Shown here: one piece after another, positions 30,595 to 45,500 of the stretch
How positions within the stretch are numbered: the stretch's first letter is position 1
Layout: each line of letters starts with the position of its first letter
Assembly: GCA_000310025.1 (NCBI GenBank)
Contig: FN648407.1
Span: 198,785 to 262,784 of the forward strand
Direction: 5' to 3'
DNA: 64,000 bases
Source of the DNA: Ectocarpus siliculosus
Taxonomy: Eukaryota; Sar; Phaeophyceae; Ectocarpales; Ectocarpaceae
Notes under the pieces: generated by a model
The model's input: the letters and a program-made list of their open reading frames with translations, nothing else
Database searches by the model: none
What the model was told of the DNA's origin: nothing
Made by a program: the position numbers and the translations under genes

Positions 30595-33500
30595 TGGCAA
30601 ACGTGTAAGATGTTCTCCCATATCTACAGTAATGAATAACCCCCGAAATACAATACCTACGATTCACCCCGACACGAGGCTTGTGGCCTCCTCGTGTATG
30701 CCACTCCTGAACTCTAGCAGCGCCCGTACATCTGCCTCACAAGCATAGCTAGCCGCAACACGTTATTTCGCTCCCAGTCCAAAATCATCGTTATTTACGT
30801 CCTTCATCCTGTTTCCTACGTGATCCAGCTACGCCATATCGCTTCACGCTGAACAGCTGTGCATGGGAAAGACATGCACGTTTGCCTTGTGCTCCACCTT
30901 CTTACCGTAGGTGGCCTACTGTAAGATGCCACACCACCTGGACGGGTTTTCTCAGCTCTAATGCTCATGTGGCAAGAACGGCGAGGGTGCCGAAAGTGAA
31001 GGCGTTGAAAGCTTTCCGCGAACGAACCGTTTGGTTCTGGCAATCTCTTCGTTGTGGAGTAATCGAGCTTTGAATTTCGGCCCAGGGAGTCTGGTATCTT
31101 TTGCGACCTACGGTATCCCAATACTCGGGGCACCATTCTTCTTCTGTGTCTTGGGGACAATCACCCTCTCCCTCTCCCGTTGGTCGACAACTATTTTGTC
31201 AGCCCCACATGGACCCAAGTCTGTACGAGGCCCTCAACGACACCACGATCCGGCTGAACATCACATGCGCGAAGATGGACCATTCTAGCTCGCTGCAGAA
31301 CGGCTGCCTCGAGTTCACGGTCAACTTCACAGAGGCCACACCCTACAACTACACCGAACCATACGAGTTCGTCGACGACTGCTCTCACGGATTTTCCAGC
31401 GGTGAACAGGTGCAGTCCGTTGTAGTGCACGCGGCGTCACCCATAGGGCCCACGAGCTCGGCTTCCCTGGGCGTCGGAAACGCGCTCATTTTGGCCGGAA
31501 AGGCAGACCAGGGTCTCCCCTGGTCAGAGGGGTTTAATGAGGACGGCAGCCGGAAAGATGACGAGTTCTGGAGTGATTGGTGGGCCACTGTCGATAGTCG
31601 GTACGTTAGTACCGAAGAGAGCGGTGAGTGCCGGGCGTGTCTGACAAATTCTACGTTGCTACTGCTGTCTTTTGACTCCTCCAACGAATTTGGCATATGC
31701 AGCAGACGAGCAATAAAGCGCACCTCGCAAATGTGCCTCATGATGTATATTCGTACGAAATGGTCTTTTCTGTTGATACTGGTCACTAGTCGTAAGTTGG
31801 TGACAGTATGCCGAGCGCAGATGCAGGAAATCAATGCAGCAAGCGGCTTGCACCACCAACACGTCGATTTCATACAAGTATCCTTAGCCTGACTGCTATC
31901 TGGGCAAAACTGTCACGGTAGCATGAACGGGTGCTAAATACTGAGATTCATTCCGTTTCACGATGGTTTGAGGAGGGCTAGGGTATACCCCAGGGTGTAC
32001 CTGAATCATTGGCGGAGCCCCTCTAGAGCGCCGCCTCAACACGTGTTTTGGGTGATCGCTCACTGTTAACACGGCCAATCTCGGAAGAGGAACTTTGACG
32101 CACCCGCTAAGAAGCAACCAGTCTGTGAGTCAAAGCATGAGAGGTAGATCTGGATAGATCTTGCCTAGACCCCCCTTGCTACTCCCACCTTGATTAGACC
32201 CACAGGGCTAGACCCACCGGGAGTGTATCCCTTTTCCTAGCCCCCAACTTGAATCCAATGGTAAGATACCATGAAACTGACCATGAAATGGATGAAACTA
32301 ATTGAACCCTAGCCAGTGCTTGTTACGCTAACACATGAGTGAGCTACCCTAAGCGATTCGGTCGGTGTCGTGGGCTTCACATGCCTATCAAGTATACTTC
32401 GACGAGAGGAATGCCGCCCGTGTGGTTGAGGATGCTCTGCGGGGCCGGTGAAAGGAGCACCTATGAACAGTACGGTGTCCTAGTAAGCAGTAAGCCTGTC
32501 TGTCTTCAGCGTGGATGTCAAAGAGGAAAAATGAGACACGTTGGACTGGACTGTGTGGAAATGTTGTATAGTGTCCACAATGTCATACCAAGCACCTTGG
32601 TTCTGCGATGGATATGACCTTGAGGGGATTTCCTTCACGCTTTAGGTTCTCTGTGATATCACAAGGCACACGTACATGTCCGCACCGACCTTGTACCCGG
32701 TTTTAATGCGGGGCCAAGAAATGCTAGTCCACGATGTGAGGGGTGGAAAACGGTATGTACCTCAACATGAGGTGACGGCACTGGATCTCCTGAGGCTCAT
32801 GACAGAAGAAGAAGCACGGAAACATTCTACGCGTCGTGCAGCCATCGCAGCATTCAACGATATAGTGTTGGGACTCAAGGAGTCGTGGTTGGCGGCGCAA
32901 GTGCGAATGGTGCAGTATTTCCGGGCCTCAAACCTTGACCCGGAGGCCCCGTACGCCACAGAAGAAGGTTACTTCTGGCATTTACTCTCTATGCGTGATC
33001 TTCAGATCTTGGAGGAGAAAGCGTTGCAGTTGTGCTTTCCTCAATGGGGAGACAGGATGCCACGCGAGGCTCAATTGCTCACGATCAGAGAAAACTACCG
33101 ACACAGCTCGACAAGATTCCAACCATCCGACATGAGCTGGGCTCGCCTTACATGGCCAGGAGGGGAGCACTCACCAAGGAGATATTCACAAAGTTCTCCA
33201 ACACCTTAGCCCACGATGCCGGACGTTACAAAACACCGACGTCTCAGGCATCGGTTACGAGCGACTTCTCAACGTCAACAGTCCCGCACTTTCTCTCCGG
33301 GAGTGACCCCAGACAAAGGAAAACAGAAAGAACGCAGGACCTTCCAGAGGAACCTCCCGGAGGAGGCACCGAAGCCAGAGGACTCTGCAGAGAACATTAA
33401 GAGGTATATCATGCGCCCAAAGACTTGCTTCTTCCACGCCAGAGGAGCATCTTGTCCTCACATGGCTGAACAACTCTTTTGCAACTACAGTCATGAAAAA

Positions 33501-36500
33501 GTACCCTTTGGAATCTACCCCTACAAGGAGAGGGTCTCAGCGAAAGTACATCTCGCTATGATCACTTTGGAACAACTCTCGCGTGAGGACGAGGAGACAA
33601 GGGGTGATGTGAGGGAGGCGCTGCCAGAGGAGATGGACTTTGAAGACGAGGAGGGAGAGCACTCATCGTCCCACTGAGGGTGCGCCCTAGGAGCAAGACT
33701 CCTGGGGAACACACAGGATAGGCATCCAACGCGGGAGTCCTGCGACAGCGCCCTGGACAATGAAGTTGCCGTTGTGACTCCCACAAACAAGACAGTTCCG
33801 CCACCTCGAGGGTCCCAGCAAGCATGGGTCAAAGCGAATCTATGGAATAAACAAACAAAGACAAAAGACTCAGGCGGTGGAGGTGCTGGTGGACTCGGGT
33901 GCGGGAGGAGGCAATTACGCGTCTTGGAAGTTCATTCAAGGAGTGGAAAGAAACCAGTATGGAGGAAAGAACATGGTGTCAACGAAGGGAAGAGGCCGAC
34001 TACGAGCAGCTAATCCGAGTGACAGTGGAGTGGCTCCGATGACCATTCGAGGGACATGTGTGCTGTTCTTAGTCTTTCCCTTGATTGATGAGATTTTCGG
34101 TGTGAGAGTGAGAGTCGTGGAGGGACTTCCTGTAGGTCTCATTCTAGGCACTGCGTTCATGCGTCAATACAACAGCACACTAGACTTTGGAGGCTCGGGG
34201 TCTGGGTGGTTTCGACCATCACCCACATCTGATCGAACACCACTGCTGCCATACATGGAGCCCTCGAGAGTGAAAGCTAAGACACTACGTGGACTACATA
34301 GGAGACCAAACGAGGAGAACGAACCAACTCGAGCGTTCTACATGGTGGAAGGTCAAGCAGAGGAAGACGTTCGACAATCACCGCCGTCTGAAGTGCTGGC
34401 AATGGAGGCTCTGGAATTAGGGTCAACAGCGTGGGAGGATGATGGGACGTTGACATGGCCCATCTATGTTGACCAAGAAATCAACGTACCTGGCAGCGTG
34501 AGTGTCGAGGTGGATGCACGTGAAAAAGGTCCAATACCGTTTACCAAAACTCTGGTGTTGGTTTTTCCAGTGGAACCTTTTGATATGGAAAAGGGAGGAA
34601 TACTTGGAGTCGCGAAAGGTGTTCAGTGGTGGGACCCGAGTGTCAGGATGAAGATCAAAGTGGTTAACAAAGCAACTTCTTACGAGACCATTACTGAGTT
34701 AACCCAAGTCGTGCGGGCGATAGCGGTTAACTGTAGTGATGTCGAAAGAATGCTACTCCTGAAAGAACCACTGCCGGGGAAAGCAACACCCGAGTAAATG
34801 GGCACACGACAGACCTTGGAACAGAGCCAGAGGCACGAGGAGCAATCGGTGGACGTAAGCACGGCCAAGACCGGCCAGACGAGCCCGGCGACGCGAGCGA
34901 GACTGCTAGCATTGCTCTACAAGTTTAGGAGTATTTTCCCGAAGAACACGAAGGTCGTCAAGATTAAACATGGACGGAAGGTGGGACTGCCACTCATAGA
35001 CGAAAACGTCACCCCAATCGCCTGCAAAGCTCAGAGGTGGAGTCCTCCTATGGCTGACCTCTTGATGAAACAGCTCAATCAGGGACTGGCAGCGGGAACC
35101 TTCAGGCTATCCACCTCTTCGTGGTGCTAACGGATTGTGCCTGTACCTAAATCCGACGGCACATACCGCATCTGTATAGACTACAGAGATCTCAACAAGC
35201 TCATCAAGAAGGATAGTGGTGGACTTGGCGACATTACGGGCATGCTCGATCGGATGAAAGGGAGTAAGTTCTTCTCATCTCTCGACTTGGCACAGGCATA
35301 TCATCAACTGGAACTTGAGGAGACGGACAAACATAAGACGGCCTTTAGGGACCCCACGGGACGTCTACTCGAGTCAAATCGATGCGCCTTTGGTATCACC
35401 ACAATCCCCGCCGTCTTCTCAGCCACGTTGGGTGATGATCTGCGAGAGTTATTGGGCAAGGGCTTGGAGAAATGGTTGGATGACATCGCACTCCACACAA
35501 AGACGTTGGAAGAACACTTCGTACTGCTGGAGAAGGTCCTCACTATCCTGAAACGAAAAGGGTACACAGGTCACTTCGTGAAAAGCGAATTTCTATTGCC
35601 AGAGCTCGAGTTCTTAGGAGTCATGGTCGGAAGGGATGGAACTCGACCAGCACCATCGAAGGTAACAGCCGTGCAAGAAATGGAAATGCCGTCGACGGTG
35701 GGAGAGTTGAGGTCCTTCCTTGGACTAGCCAACTATTTGAGGGGATTCGTACCCAACTTTAGCGCCATCGCCGCTCCACTATCGGACATCCTGAGGAACA
35801 AGGAATTTAGTTCTAAACGAGCCCGTAGCAAACGAGTCGTCATGGGGCCTCCAAAAATTGAGGCGTATATGAAACTCGTGGAGAAACTGACCACATACCC
35901 AGTGCTGGTACTACCTAATTGGCTGGAACCCTTCACGCTACATGCGGATGCCAGTTTGATCGCGGCAGGGTCAGTCCTGACACAGCAGGTGGAGAACAGA
36001 GAGGCTCCGGTCGGATACGCCAGTAAGAGGTTGTCCAGGTCAGAGGAAAAACTGTCGCCAAACGATCGGGAGGTTCTGGGAGTGTTGTATGCACTAGAAC
36101 ATTTCAAGATTTACTTTCAGCACCGTCAGTTCACTCTCATCACGGACTGTGCGGCCCTGGTGTGGCTCTTCACTAGCCAAAACCTATCGTCAAAGATGCA
36201 CCGTTGGGCGCTAAAGATGATGGCGTATTATATGGTCTTGAAGTGGAGAAGGGGAACAGACCATGTCGTTCCAGACACTCCGGCGGAAAGGCTCTGGCGA
36301 ACCCGATGTCGACACCACATTACCGGGTGATGGAGCTGGCGAAGTAAGGGGGAGCGGGCCGGCAGGACCAGTGTTGGAAGGGGTTCCTCTCCAAAGGATG
36401 GCACAATCACAACTTGCTGAAGAAGAGGAGAGAAGTGACTCACAACCGGAGTTAGTCATGCTCAACAAGAAAGACATCAAACTCGATGGAATCTGCTTAG

Positions 36501-39500
36501 CTGACCTGGGGCCAACAGAGGTCGATGACAGAGAAGTGGAGAATCTCAGTGTGTTCTATGCATTGCAGATCACACCTGATGCGTTGACGCCGAGGGACGA
36601 GGAGTGCGTAGCGGCGTATCAACAAGCACAAGGTCTCTTTACACAAAGACAGCCGAGGGCGGCTGTTCTCGGTCGGGGGGGTGGTGGAACATTACAAGCC
36701 GTTGAGGGTATGCTGGACGTAACATGTGTGATTGACTCTGATTGGAAGACCATGGAATGCATAGAGTCAACGGAGGAGCCGGTGATGCGACATTGATTCG
36801 TCAGCCTTTAGAGTCCGACACACGCCACAAAATCCTCGAGTATAAACCCGAAATCCTCATTGGCAATGCGTGCGCCATTGAGGATGGTCCAGACGAAGGA
36901 GCGAGGACAGGGCGAAATGCAGATAACATTGTGCAGATTTTCGTGTCGTCCCCCATCCAGATCCTGGCAATGGAGAAACCAGTAGGCTTTGCAGGGTCAG
37001 AGAGATGGAAGAACATTCTTCACCCAGAACAACTGCACCTGGCGGGCTGTGAAACGGCAACAGCGTCTCTATCAGCGACAGCAGTCGGGATACCCACAAC
37101 AAAACGGAGAGTGTTTTTGGTAGCAGTCAAGAAGAGCGGGGATCCCAATTTGACAGCTAAACTATCTCAGTGGAAGAGGAATGTGGAGAGAACCGCACCG
37201 TCGACACCCACGGCCGGTGCCTTTTTGAGAAGACAGGGATGCTTCTTCTTGAAACGGGGACGTCAGAACAAGGAGATATTCTCGTTTGAGGAGCCGGTGG
37301 TGACGGTTACAAGGGAACACATCATGGGCCGTAAACCCCTATCAACAGCTTTTACGGCACACCCCAACGACGCAGGGTCGTTGCAGGAAGCGCAAGAGCT
37401 ATCGTGGGAAGATTACGTGAAGCTAACCACCAACCGGGACAACTACGAGGTACCACCAACTCTGACAAGATGCGATGTAGCTCGAGTGATGCAAGAGCAC
37501 ACGTTAGCGCCAATGCTGAGAGAAGTTCTGAATCTCCTACAACTGAAAGGAAGGCCGAAGCGTCTAATGGATGGTAAAAGAACGGAGAGACAGATCACAC
37601 CAAACAAGTAGACGAATATCTGCTCATAGACTTGGCCAGCTTGTATCAGGAAGATGCGGCGGTGGCGGTGGTGACTAGGGGAGTTACCGTCGACCGTCAC
37701 GTCGACCGCACACGTTTTAAGGTGACCCCGGCGGAGACTCGGAGTGCGGCTCGACGAGCTCGACAGCCGACACTCACTCCATCCACCATAGCGAAGCCGA
37801 CGACCTCTTCAGAGAAGGAGACCGTTGTGCAAAAACCAGAGAGACGATCAGTGTCGACAGAGAGCTCTTCTACAACACCATCGAGGTCCGACCCAGAAAC
37901 ATCGCAACCACGGTTGGAACGGCCAGACAACGACATTCCCCTCTGTCGAGGGCATTCCGAACAGTTGGAACAAATGGAGCGTGTCTTGCGCGACGGTGCC
38001 CAACTGAAAAGGACCCAACAGGAAGACTTGAGGTTGAAACCCATCCGGGACAATCTGGAGAACGGCGAAGGAGAGCAAGCTGATTATATCCTGGACGATC
38101 AAGGTCTACTTTGGTTTGCGCCGAGAGGGGCGGCACATGTTGTAACCCTACCTCGCAAGCTGGTGTCTGCAGTACTGGCCCTGGCACATGGCACCTTTGG
38201 ACATCCGGGGATAGCTCGCACTACCATAATTGTGGCGGACAAGTCCACTGGCCATCGCTGAAGAAAGATGTACGAGACTACGTGTTATCATGTCAATGCC
38301 GTATGAGAAAAAGACAGTGGAGCAAACAAATTCACGTGTTAGTGGCACGATTCTTGCGTCCATTGGGAAGTCTTGGAGATGGATATTCTTGACATGAAGT
38401 TGACATCGAACAAGGGCAACAGGTACTTGCTGGTGATAGTGGATCGAGCAACCAAGTTCCTCTTCGCTTTCCCGCTTCCCACGAAGGAAACTTTGGGAGT
38501 CAGCAAGAAATTGTTGGAGCTCATCCTCACCCTCGGACTACCCATATCAGTGCGCTGTGATCCGGGGGGCAGAAAACACCTCGGCGATCATGGAACACCT
38601 GTGCCGGTGGCTCAAAATATCCCTCGACTTTGGACCGACCAACCATCCTAGAGGACAGGGAACAGTCGAGAGGATGGGAGCGGTGCTGCAAGAGATGCTG
38701 TCGGAGCTCTGCCAGGCATGGCCGAACAGGTGGGATGAGTATGTGGCAGTGGTCGCTTGGGCCCATCGTACGACGCCGGATGAGAGCCTTCCAACCAAAG
38801 AGTCAGCATACCAACTGCTCTTTGGACGGGCGCCAAGGACATCGTTTGATCACATGTCGCCATCACTAGACAACTCGGGCCCAGCATTGCCGTTGGAAAG
38901 GACGGTGGAGGAAACGAGAAGGAAGACTGTGGAAGTGATGCAAGTGCTAAAAGTGAGACAGGAAAATCGGAATAGACACCGCGAACTCCAGAATGCGAGG
39001 ATCAAACGTGCATCACCAGGCACCAAGGCTAAGGTGGGCGACAAGGTATTGGTCAAGGAGAGCGCCAGTACACTCTACCGGGATGGCGTCCACCCTAAAC
39101 TTGCCCATGACCACTTCACAGGACCGTGGCAAGTTGTGCACGTCGTGCGAGAGGGGGAAAGGGGTTGAGCTTTACTGTAAGAGTGCATGGACGTCAAATC
39201 CGCCAGCGGACGGTGGCAGCCACGGACTTCAAGCCGTTTCATTCTCGACCACAAGACATCAGACATCCATTCGAACATGAGTTTGGTCATTTGTATGGTC
39301 GCCGGATTTAGGATTAGCTGAAGACTCCGTCGTCGCGGCACCTCTGTATACTTTGGTGAATAGACGGGTGGTCCAGGGCGCTGGAGGCAGAGCGTCCGCA
39401 TGGGCATGGGAGTATAGAGGAAAGTATCAGGATGGCACCACTTCTCCGTGGATCACCGAAGACACTGCCAGGGACAGTTTCTCGCCTCTGCAACTTGATG

Positions 39501-42500
39501 TTTTTCATGCCCTGTGGGAAGACTTTCACGGGGTGAATATTGCACCACGACCCCCGGGACCGCCGTCGCGAGGAGAACGCGAAGTAGCAACGCGGGCCGA
39601 CGCTCTCGCGGAATTTCCCTGTGGAACCATGGTTGGCCGGGAGCTCATGGATCAAGAGAACAACATTGTGCTCAGCAGAGGGAAGGTCTGCGACTTCTAT
39701 GATCCGTACTGGAGAGTGGAGTTCAGCGACGGAGATTGGGAAGAGCTCAATCGCAGGGAGCTAAGGCGTGGAATGGATCTTGCAACCAGACTCCCACCGC
39801 TGACCGCTCAAGAATCGTGAAGTCGTACACTGCCAGCCATCTTCCGTCCTCCATGCGGGAAGCTGGGTGTGTGTGTGACGGCAGTGTTACGAATGAGGAG
39901 TTCCAAGATCGTCTTCTACAGCGGAAGATTGTCCTGAACAGTCGGTGAGCGTCGGTCAAGATGCAAGATCGTCGTCATAGTCGTCGGTCTGTGGAGACTG
40001 TTTGTGGAAGAACATCTTCAACAGTGGAAGATCACCTTCTTCAGTGGACGATCGCCTTGTTCAGTTCAAGATCGTCACCGTCAAGGAGTCCGGTATACGG
40101 CGGCCAAAGTACTAAAACGGCCGTCATTCGGGGTCGATGATTTCAGCAATGTAACATCGACGTCGAACACACCGGCATCCGTCCTCTCGAGGTTCAAATC
40201 CATTTTTTGTGGTTTAACCTGGGGAGGGCGGCATCCTCCCTTTTCTGATCTATATTCCCGGCGTGGTATGATCTGAGGAGGGAGAAGCGCACGTTCTGCT
40301 ACCTCCTTAGCATTTTGTGTTTTTCAACACATGTATGCTGGGGGGGTGTCACGGTAGCATGAACGGGCGCTAAATACTGAGATTCATTCCGTTTCACGAT
40401 GGTTTGAGGAGGGCTAGGGTGTACCCCAGGGTGTACCTGAATCATTGGCGGAGCCCCTCTAGAGCTCCGCCTCAGCACGTGTTTTGGGTGATGCTCACTG
40501 TTAACACGGCCAATCTCGGAAGAGCAACTTTGACCCACCCGCTAAGAAGCATCCAGTCTGTGAGTCAAAGCATGAGAGGTAGATCTGGATAGATCTTGCC
40601 TAGACCCCCCTTGCTACTCCCACCTTGATTAGACCCACAGGGCTAGACCCACCGGGAGTGTATCCCTTTTCCTAGCCCCCAACTTGAATCCAATGGTAAG
40701 ATACCATGAAACTGACCATGAAATGGATGAAACTAATTGAACCCTAGCCAGTGCTTGTTACGCTAACACATGAGTGAGCTACCCTAAGCGATAGCGTTAT
40801 AACAACTGTGACAAAACTTCGTATTCAAACAATACAGCGGAGGGGACAGAAAACATGCCTTGATTTGAGAAGACGAGAAAGAGAACTGTGTTTGTGTTCG
40901 ATTTTGCCGAGACAATGTGCGCACCAATAACATAATGGAAAACCGCACACCGCGCGCCTGAAACACGATTTCTTGCTACGTTTGGGGCCATGAGATCTGA
41001 TGGTGCGGGTACTTCGTGTGCCTATTTCATAAGTAGCATCGATTACCCCGCGTTTGCACGTCCAGCAGTACCACCCCTCGACGACTGGATTTGTCGTGTT
41101 GTCAAAGTTCGAACTTTCCCAACACAACGGCCTGTCAAACGTGCGCTGCCCCGTAACTGTCCGCTCTGCCACGAACAGATGATCCGTGCACCGAGTATGA
41201 CGGAATAGTCGATGCTGATGGTGTCTATTGCTGCTCTGACGAGGACAGCACCTGCGACTCGGGAGATGTTGACAGTGACGACGGGTTCTGCGGTGATGAT
41301 AACCCAGCGCCCTGCGAACTGCTTGGTGAGCCGTCGTGTTCAAGGAACGGCGATATCCAAAGACTCACGGCAACAGGCACAAGAGAGAATTCCAAGCAGT
41401 AGCTTGTCGTCTGAAGTAATAGTCACTTAGTCCATCGGGATGACCAACTTTTCCCTTTTTTCCCCATCGGTGCGCCATAACATCTACAATAGATCCTCCG
41501 AACAACAGAAAATACATTATAACAATATTTCCACACTTAAACAGGTCCCCCCGCCGATTTAGTCGACGATATCCCGTGTAAACCATGTCATAACCAAATC
41601 AGAGTTTCAACTCTCACCAAAACAATATTGGATAGCTAATACCGCCGTAGATAGTTCAGTTTCATGTGCGTATTGGAGGGAAGGAACAACTGACCCGTTT
41701 CGCGAAGAAAACGAAGAGGAGTGGCAAGACCGCTCTCTGTTAGTCTAGATTGGATCTCTTCGGTACGAAACGATTCAATCCTGAAGCGGAAGTCAGCCCT
41801 GCGAGCAATGGCGAGAGAAGGGATGAGGACGACACAAGAAAACAAAAAACAGCTGCATGTAGTAAAAATCATTTCTTGGTCAACGTCTCCCGCCTAGGCT
41901 CTCGCCCATTTCAGATCGTTTCGTGCTCCTTTTGGCGCTAGACAATGCTCGTACGTCAACTACCGCGTCCTGCGTCGCAGTGACGCCTATGGCACAATTC
42001 CTCCACTGCAGACCTGATCTGTTAATTGCCACGATTTGTCATCCCCCGTGGACTGACTGTCTCAAAGGGATCTCTGCTCCTTCCCGTGTGCGCCTTCCCC
42101 GCCCTCGGCCACAGACTACACCTACCTTGGATGTTTCGAGGACAATCGAGACCGTGAACGTTTCATGGAGATGGCGGCAAGGCGGTGGGACATGACCACA
42201 GAGGTGTGTGCATACGACGTACGGTCGTCTGCATGGTACCTTTAGGGGGGAAAGCGGGGATTGCCGTTTCTGTTGCTATCCGCAGCGGCTCTTATCATCG
42301 AAGAATTTGTCTTGTGTTTGTGTTTGTGTTTGTGTTCGTGGTGATCGTCGTCGTAGTCGTAGTCGTCATCACAGTCGTAGTCGTAGTCGTTGTCGTTGTC
42401 GTAGTCGTAGTCGTAGTCGTAGCCGTAGTCGTAGTCGTAGTCGTAGTCGTAGTCGCGGTAGTAGTTGTTGTTGCTTTCTGTCGTTGTTTTGTTGTGTTTT

Positions 42501-45500
42501 GTGTTGTGTCCAGTCTCGCGTGAAACGGAGAGAGCGAGCGGGCAGCGTCGAGGATTATCAGTTAAAATGACAAATCGCACTGTGTAGACCCTCGTCTCAC
42601 ATTGAAAGCTGGGATGGACCATGGCGGATTCGCCGCACCTGCACCAAACGCGATCTGCCGTGAGGTGTTCAGCGAGTCGAACAGCAAGCTGCATCCAGAT
42701 CTCACGAGACGGACTTCGGTGCATCCCATGCTTCACCTGCTCTACATACGACACAATTCCAAGTGTATGGTTTATTTCCAGTGGTGATAAGACCCATCAA
42801 GAATAAGGCTATTCTGCACACTACAATGTATGCAAAGAGTGACACGATCAACCATCTGGCACCGCGGAGTTGACCACACGTGGAAAAACATTTTTGATGG
42901 ACAAACATACCTCTCTTCTCTCGGACGAATTCGTTTCTCTTCCGTGTGTTGACGGGGCGATCGCGCCGCTAATATCCTTGCTCGTGACGGGGTGGCGGCG
43001 GCCCGCGCAGCTCTGCGAAGAGCTGTGCGCCGGGTCCAGGCAGTTCGGAACACAGTGGTCCAGAGAGTGCTGGTGCGGTCCGGAGGACGCCGACGCCGAC
43101 CACCTCATGTTCGGCGAGGCGACGAATTGTGACATGGAGTGCAGCGGGAGCGACGACGGCGAAATTTGCGGGGGTCACAACGCGATGAGCACTTATGAAT
43201 TCCGTCAACAGTCCATCACAGGTGAGCATGCGATGATGCGGGCGGCCCGCTCGTGAGCTCGTGAGCCTAACCCTCTTTCCATTTCAATCCTTGGGGATGG
43301 GTCGTTGCCGAATTGCACCAGAGCTAGATTTTCTCAGTCTCGCAGCCCCCTCCCCCGGTTCTGTTCGGGACGGGTCTGTCGCCTTTGATTAGAGGGGCAT
43401 GCAAGGGCCACCTCACTAAGGAAAACATCGGCCACGAGGGAAAAGCGTTGCTAGGGCTAACGACTGCACGGTCGCGGTACCAACCGGAAACCCACCGCAT
43501 CGCTAGCCTACGCTTGTCGCTTCGTACACACAAAACCCTCCTGATCGCTGTAGCTGTGAGGTGCAGAGAGCTTCCTGGAACATGCAAGCTTTGACAATGA
43601 CACGCGAAAAGCGTTTCGGGGACATGAACCTTGGGACTTACACTCTAGCGGTGAAACTACGTGAACCATTGGAGTGATCCCCAAAGGGGAATGAAAACGA
43701 GGGTGTAGCCACTCAAAACTACATGGATGAAACGTTGGGGCTAGACTATATGTAGGCTGACGACCACACTATTTGTAGGAGAACAATGTGGTTTTTGTAT
43801 GAAGAATGGCGGGTTGTACCAGCCAAACAACGTCCGTTTCGACGGGCGGCACAGCTGGTAGAGGTTGGTTCGAACGGGGCCGGCTGTTGTGTCACGGCCT
43901 GGATCAGTACGGACCGCTTCCGTTGAGCGGGAATCGGTCAAGCAGTGCCCGTGGTGGTTGATGTGCCCCGCGACCTGTACATTTCATCCCAGGTTTTGCA
44001 CACTCCCAATCATTCGAAGGATCTCAGACGCATTCGTTTCGACTGCTCTGTTTCCTCCTACCGTTTTCGCAAACAAGCATGGGATGTTGTCTGGCGGGAG
44101 AGGGCTGGCCAAAATAGAAGTGTTCCGTTTTCGTTTGAGTTTTTAGACTAACAGGACAATGGAAATTACATTTTGGGTGGTTGAAATGTGTAACGCTTTG
44201 GCAATGCATGATGGTTGAGTTTTCGCGCGTTGTTTGTTTGGACAGAAACGCCACCTCCAAGGTGTACCAGTCTCGCACCCAAGTCCCCGCCCAACATAGC
44301 AGAAAAACGCCAGGCCATAGCCAGAATTCCGCGTCCCTTTACTCCCATCGCACAACCCGAAAAACAGAGAACGCACTAGAAGAGAACGAGGAGCGCGGCT
44401 GCACGGGTAGCTCTGCCCAGTTCTGGGACCCCAAGAACGGGGAATGGCGGTCGACGTTCGAGACCATCGACGGAGAGTCCCACGACCTAGACATGTTCTA
44501 CATGAGCTTGGTAGACGGGGTGAACGAGCTGTGGGTGACGGAGATCGAGTCGTGGATGGCTCCCAGCCTCTACAACCAGCTCCAGTACAACTACGTAAAG
44601 CTGATCTTGACGTGCCCGGAGGACAACGTCGTCGTCGACTCTTGCGTCATCTTCGAGCCGACGTGAGTTAAAACAGGCTAATGAGTAGCGGTCGAATGCA
44701 CTCATCGCCTCCCACTCGAAACGCCGTCCGATCATCTCCTCGCCTAGCCACAAGAGAGGGAACTAGTGCATTTTCCGTTGTATAGGGTGTTATTTGTCTC
44801 GCACCCGAGGATCGGAAGAGGGGTTCGGCACACCGCCATCCTCGACAACAACGGGCAGCAACCTGAACAAAAAGAGTTGGTGTTGACGTGGCCAACCAGA
44901 GAGTAGGATCAACTGAACACTTCCATCCTTGACAAAAATAGTGCAGCAATATTCTCTCCAGAAATAAGAGCTGCTGCAAACCGTACTGTGCCAGTCACTA
45001 CAATACCCACACGCTCGCCCTTAAGCTCCCTCTTCCCCCTGTCCCCCGCTCCATTGCCTCCTGGTGCCGGAAGAAGAGGGATCGCGGAAGAAGAGGGATC
45101 GATGAATTGTGTCTCTAAAGAATCGCCGAATCAAGCCGAATCAACCACGACCTGAAGGGACTTTCTCCCACGAGAATACACAATCTATCGGTGACCGCCC
45201 GTTGACCTTTCGAAACTAAAGCATGACCGATGTAAATCCTATTGATGCTTTGGGTATCTCTGCCTAGCGAAACCAAACTTCAACCGCCCCTCAACAAAGC
45301 TACACCGGGTTTTCTGGGAATTTCCCTGCGTTTTTCAGAGTACTTTGAGAATAAACGAAAATAACTATTGGATCCATCTGTCACCACGTCGCGGTTGCGC
45401 CGCAGGTTCACCAACTGGTCCCCGGACGTCGACGGAGCCGCGGCCGGATACCGGTTCTCCGACCCGGCGTTGCCTTCGTTCGACATTCCGGAGGCCGTGC

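Follow-up and report, generated by a model that had tools for sequence, protein, structure and literature searches.

Retroelements which carry a cytosine-C5 methyltransferase (C5-methyltransferase) have been described before and, in the passages of PMC5890265 on which we draw, are reported to conserve the key residues and are discussed as self-methylating tools. According to the same passages, KnitGypsy-Dnmt3 of Klebsormidium nitens harbours such an enzyme within a gypsy Pol which is subject to purifying selection (Ka/Ks < 0.2), while in Symbiodinium, likewise an alga, the enzyme is borne by SymbioDIRS-Dnmt3 and SymbioLINE-Dnmt. As far as the consulted part of PMC6338049 goes, DAM- and DCM-encoding Ty3/gypsy and DIRS elements are reported from several groups including stramenopiles. 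Here we analyse a 64,000-nucleotide stretch of the Ectocarpus siliculosus contig FN648407.1 (positions 198,785 to 262,784, forward strand; in the following “the window”), which contains one Ty3/gypsy element of about 8.9 kb whose Pol includes a domain derived from a C5-methyltransferase. Like KnitGypsy-Dnmt3, it combines the location in a gypsy Pol with purifying selection. In KnitGypsy-Dnmt3, however, the domain is related to Dnmt3 and retains the key residues, whereas the nearest relatives in hand of the present domain are bacterial-type enzymes, its catalytic motif is lost, a Tudor-like region forms the C-terminus and only a DNMT2-like gene was found in the host. The Symbiodinium elements differ in being of the DIRS and LINE types and in keeping the key residues, the SymbioDIRS-Dnmt3 domains methylating CG in yeast (PMC5890265, same passages). 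The present element thus departs from the known C5-methyltransferase retroelements in its lost catalysis, its closest relatives, the Tudor-like partner and the host. The literature surveyed by titles, abstract openings and paper passages revealed neither a catalytically lost C5-methyltransferase in a retroelement nor any C5-methyltransferase in a brown-algal gypsy element. Gypsy-10_Ec32 from Ectocarpus, described in PMC12477816 as a gypsy element with a C-terminal Tudor domain, resembles the present element in this respect and, likened by description, perhaps belongs to the same broad lineage. The two “methyltransferase” passages found in the main text of that paper concern another transposon (of the N4-methylcytosine/N6-methyladenine, 4mC/6mA, type) and histone enzymes, not Gypsy-10_Ec32.

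We consider it probable that a captured bacterial-type C5-methyltransferase has been kept in Pol as a non-catalytic module, perhaps able to bind DNA and S-adenosylmethionine (SAM), beside the Tudor-like domain. This reading starts from what is shown, namely how the domain is predicted to fold, to which proteins it is related in sequence and where it lies in Pol; moreover, every copy read has lost PCQ as well as the Gln of motif VIII, and selection on the domain is purifying. Alignment with sister copies places the domain at 36647..37545 (+), close to the range 36640-37590 for which the initial annotation had noted a C5-methyltransferase-like segment between RNase H and integrase; this placement is confirmed. 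A frameshift near position 36763 splits the domain, its motif I part lying in the open reading frame (ORF) 36242-36796 and the remainder in the ORF 36742-37611. We ran a profile of 119 bacterial-type C5-methyltransferases against 1727 ORFs of at least 60 amino acids, comprising those of the window, residue-shuffled window ORFs and the frames of 11 sister loci. The sole window ORF matched is 36742-37608 (26.2 bits, E 4.2e-7), none of the shuffled ORFs is matched at E <= 1 and all 11 sister loci are recovered, the weakest being L009 with E 4.4e-4. The ORF harbouring motif I is, taken alone, unmatched by this profile. In the reverse search, a profile of nine retroelement domains assigns 53.3 to 59.9 bits to the 25 best-listed bacterial-type enzymes (E 1.7e-18 to 1.8e-16, 135 sequences), 50.4 bits to P0014 and 53.0 bits to the phage-borne locus L069 described below. 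The Pfam profile PF00145, by which the initial annotation had suggested verifying its claim, provides no such match. Both window ORFs carrying the domain retrieve no Pfam family at E <= 1, and two of five intact sister copies match PF00145 at E <= 10, the best (E 0.031) reaching 14.1 of the 22 bits of the gathering cut-off. Sequence searches of the PDB retrieved nothing by phmmer with the domain of lineage C (see below) and one unrelated chain (E 0.72) with a five-domain profile. Weak matches to Seadornavirus VP8 were taken as chance. Structure models of sister copies are predicted to adopt the class I methyltransferase fold of the C5 type, and this predicted fold is common to lineages A and C, whose domains are 37% identical.

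When three domain sequences served as queries, the genome to which the window belongs (492 contigs, 189.5 Mb) yielded 71, 67 and 77 matches, many of which are pieces of one copy. Further elements of the kind, for which the initial annotation had recommended searching, are indeed present and form four carrier lineages. Lineage A represents the window type and includes L002-L008, which are 88-95% identical to the window; lineages B and D share 42-44% identity with the window domain and 54-55% with each other, and lineage C shares 32-33% with the window domain. Open Pol frames run through the domain on C147 (1807 amino acids), C98 (1649 amino acids) and C30 (1943 amino acids), and eleven metagenome proteins are further relatives. 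The domain tree, (C,(A,(B,D))), matches the tree of the reverse transcriptase (RT) among the carriers, lineage D being represented by L049 in the RT tree and by L013 in the domain tree. Since the carriers branch in the same order in both trees, the domain was inherited with Pol; its assignment to the Pol of a Ty3/gypsy element is supported. Related elements without the domain also exist, namely L080, L081 and L082 (long Pol frames scanned) as well as L083 and L088 (frames of at least 250 amino acids scanned). The first three possess long open Pol frames, and L080 and L081, the two tested, show a Tudor-like match; L080 has a linker of 208 amino acids where the domain would sit. The RT of the domain-less elements is 51-57% identical to that of lineage C. 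While the RT tree leaves lineage C, the domain-less lineage and A+B+D without firm order (61/37), the integrase tree joins lineage C to the domain-less lineage (82/99), which would mean domain loss or recombination. The domain-less lineage may have diverged before the capture or have lost the domain afterwards. The genome allows a natural comparison, since Tudor-like elements which carry the domain coexist in it with relatives devoid of it.

The catalytic motifs were read in 38 loci, including the window copy and decayed copies, with motif IV being readable in 36. PCQ is present in none of the 36 and not even PC occurs; 19 readings are GNAC, nine are close variants, seven belong to the lineage C type (CNVEK or similar) and one is decayed. 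The loop is, moreover, shortened by one residue. In the window, IGNACA replaces PCQ in motif IV, MEKPVG stands in motif VI where ENV is expected, and GIPTTKRR in motif VIII where PQxRxR is expected. Glu of motif VI is found in 27 of 36 readings and EN in two, one of these in a doubtful alignment, whereas the 32 insertion-free readings of motif VIII comprise Pro in 29, Gln in none, Lys or Arg in 29 and the second Arg in 27. The three glycines of the SAM-site motif I (GxGG) are invariant when aligned with real enzymes, a few decayed copies among the 29 readings having lost GxGG. Thus, none of the lineages examined has preserved the nucleophile motif, but the glycines of the SAM site and some of the active-site residues nearby persist. 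As to the series of motifs I, IV, VI, VIII, IX and X originally claimed for the window, motif I stands, motif IV is devoid of PCQ, motifs VI and VIII are altered and motifs IX and X are recognisable through alignment only.

The nearest relatives in hand are the bacterial-type C5-methyltransferases P0014-P0132, mostly metagenome proteins and a few named bacterial ones. They were the 119 examined among 5063 and do not represent a neutral sample since the query held retroelement domains plus L069. These proteins of about 280-305 amino acids contain a FSIDEPxxTIRG...H segment, and the retroelement domain aligns with them over nearly its full length, including the segment after motif VIII. They differ from it in being free-standing and in having PCQ, EN[V/I] and EPxxT[I/V] in 119 of 119 listed. 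Among 50,697 phage records two match at E <= 10 (best E 3e-3), leading to L069, a locus on a faecal phage contig (MT837117.1, 2341-4353) with two adjacent C5-methyltransferase reading frames of a type close to the retroelement domain. Scans of viral and prokaryote genomes with the domain gave 73 and 385 pattern matches, respectively, none of which is a relative by tblastn. A tree with three groups and a retroelement branch of 3.5 does not indicate to which of them the retroelement clade is nearest. An origin from MET1/DNMT1 was considered because IMG resembles by eye the PMG of MET1, yet Arabidopsis MET1 obtains 2.5 bits in the reverse search described above, and this origin was rejected. With bacterial-type relatives rather than MET1, an independent capture, which the initial annotation had proposed beside a spread of known elements and which would be distinct from the Dnmt3 captures already published, is plausible in a panel without a DNMT3 sequence. 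An intermediate source, viral or other, between the bacterial-type enzyme and the element is possible.

The course of events envisaged for a non-catalytic module would begin when a Ty3/gypsy lineage of the Tudor-like kind captured a bacterial-type C5-methyltransferase, which came to lie in Pol after RNase H and before integrase. Loss of the PCQ nucleophile loop would have preceded the divergence of the present lineages or have occurred repeatedly, the domain persisting in non-catalytic form. It may bind DNA, and perhaps SAM at the retained glycine motif, within Pol or the integration complex and, together with the C-terminal Tudor-like domain, might help to place or stabilise the element on chromatin, no DNA methylation taking place. 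The copy in the window, being broken, yields none of the proposed product itself. A more far-reaching version, which we regard as tentative and rather doubtful, sees in the domain a pseudo-DNA-methyltransferase with which the retroelement reads DNA, perhaps under the control of SAM. Together with the Tudor domain it would direct Pol or integration to certain chromatin, and it would have been kept in several element lineages within a host whose lineage had abandoned DNA methylation. If retention of the module holds true, a domain kept whole after catalytic loss, in a host for which just a DNMT2-like gene was found, would show that its useful part can be other than methylation.

The domain is under purifying selection near the level of RT, with the linkers only somewhat higher. 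Pooled ratios of non-synonymous to synonymous substitution (dN/dS), calculated for L004 versus eight copies including the window, amount to 0.267 [0.220-0.311] for the domain, 0.225 [0.171-0.286] for RT-RNase H and 0.114 for integrase. Across lineages A, B and C the domain is 35-45% identical, RT-RNase H 45-63% and integrase 51-61%; synonymous sites are saturated in the A-B and A-C comparisons. Several observations weigh against a functional, non-catalytic module. All dN/dS comparisons share L004 and are hence non-independent, and the flanking linkers, with 0.348 [0.260-0.451] and 0.371 [0.306-0.449], both touch the interval of the domain and are 27-41% identical across the three lineages in global alignment, so that some of the constraint may apply to Pol as a whole. 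In the part of the lineage A model which resembles a target recognition domain (TRD), the predicted local distance difference test (pLDDT) falls below 50 at residues 196-230 and 233-243. Outside lineage C, 24 of 29 readings preserve the Cys in the GNAC loop, making an unorthodox nucleophile possible there. Lineage A, finally, shows a mildly low observed/expected ratio (o/e) of CpG, namely 0.81 in the element and 0.84-0.85 in L004 and L005, accompanied by TpG values of 1.17-1.23.

The constraint on the linkers and the lost catalytic motif, as well as the related elements which manage without the domain, L080 having its linker instead, would all suit a decaying passenger whose function vanished after capture and which survives merely by its in-frame position inside Pol. 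We hold this to be unlikely, as the dN/dS of the domain is close to that of RT-RNase H, the same predicted fold recurs in lineages A and C, which are 37% identical, and three open Pol frames run through the domain. The dN/dS values, the identities between lineages and the shared predicted fold speak for a function without catalysis, although they are no strong argument against a constraint common to all of Pol.

Distinctly improbable, in our view, is an active DNA methyltransferase with an altered motif, the GNAC Cys serving as nucleophile, which marks the element's own or nearby DNA. Such an enzyme would be in line with the kept Cys, the motif VI Glu, the Lys or Arg of motif VIII, the retained glycine motif, the mild CpG deficit of lineage A and the activity of the SymbioDIRS-Dnmt3 domains in yeast. 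It is opposed by the absence of PCQ and the motif VIII Gln from every reading, by the shortened motif IV loop and by lineage C, whose CNVEK or close variant has no Cys at that position. In addition, there is no strong CpG depletion, the o/e being 0.96 in the window, 0.99 outside the element and 0.92-1.08 at those loci of lineages B, C and D which were tested, apart from the mild deficit in lineage A. In the host genome PF00145 has two matches about 2 kb apart (L019 and L020; C2:8124750-8127041), taken as one gene. This gene is DNMT2-like, as one exon matches the DNMT2 structure 1g55 (E 3.4e-13), and no PF00145 gene beyond it was found in the genome. According to the consulted part of PMC13076208, brown algae have no DNMT besides DNMT2, whereas DNMT1 is present in their sister Schizocladia, an account which the host CpG content and the lone DNMT2-like gene fit. 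The original suggestion that the element is able to mark DNA is accordingly not borne out by the lost PCQ, the single DNMT2-like host gene and the CpG content.

That the domain is a DNMT2-type RNA cytosine methyltransferase, directed at the primer tRNA or the RNA of the element, appears very improbable. DNMT2 structures do occupy the top rows when the sister-copy models are searched by Foldseek. VIA-align of a sister-copy model, however, ranks M.HhaI (21.9) and M.HaeIII (21.8) ahead of DNMT2 (20.5 and lower). DNMT2 depends on the same PCQ and ENV motifs, which are missing here. Chance resemblance of motifs in an unrelated spacer might be suggested by the window ORFs without Pfam match, the failure to retrieve a PDB methyltransferase by sequence profile at E <= 10 and the existence of related elements without the segment, the first and the last of which the initial annotation had named as observations speaking against a methyltransferase. 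This reading is rejected on the basis of the profile matches in both directions, hhalign and two structure models.

The remainder of the element conforms to a Ty3/gypsy long terminal repeat (LTR) retrotransposon, with two LTRs and RT-RNase H ahead of integrase, the order from 5' to 3' being gag-like, protease-like, RT-RNase H, C5-methyltransferase-like segment, integrase and Tudor-like region; a stop and several frameshifts break this copy. The 5' LTR (31911..32357, +, about 447 bp) begins with TGTCAC and is a direct repeat of the 3' LTR (40347..40792, +), which possibly reaches 40813, ending there with GTGACA. As the two LTRs differ at eight places, one of them an indel (counted by eye), the insertion is probably young, even though this copy is broken. 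The gag-like region (32646..33677, +) comprises two frames with a Cys/His cluster, CFFHARGASCPHMAEQLFCNYSH, read by eye; this cluster at 33420-33510 is CCCH-like and a similar one occurs in the gag-like ORFs of L009 and L010. Against Pfam, the first gag-like ORF has no match and the second a weak one to Tho2 (E 0.02). The aspartic-protease-like region (33778..34797, +) was recognised by eye from the motif VLVDSGAGGGN, its ORF being without a Pfam protease match. RT and RNase H (34798..36330, +) are interrupted by a stop at about 35128-35130, with ORF 35131-36330 matching RVT_1 (E 1.7e-20) and RT_RNaseH (PF17917, E 4.6e-27). Linker and integrase (37578..39168, +) are frameshifted; rve (E 1.9e-6) and Integrase_H2C2 (E 0.018) both remain below the cut-off in the window and exceed it in L009. 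The C-terminal Tudor-like region (39281..39820, +) has its best match at about 39680-39766, to PF21743 (PTM_DIR17_Tudor), with E 4.5e-4 in the window, 5.4e-4 in L009, 8e-5 in L080 and 1.6e-4 in L081, all below the cut-off; the Pfam scan of L012 did not find it. Downstream of the element, the window contains a short repeat array of GTCGTA-like units (42312-42479) and an ORF with a WSC domain (42843-43253; PF01822, E 2.9e-7), which probably represents an exon of a host gene.
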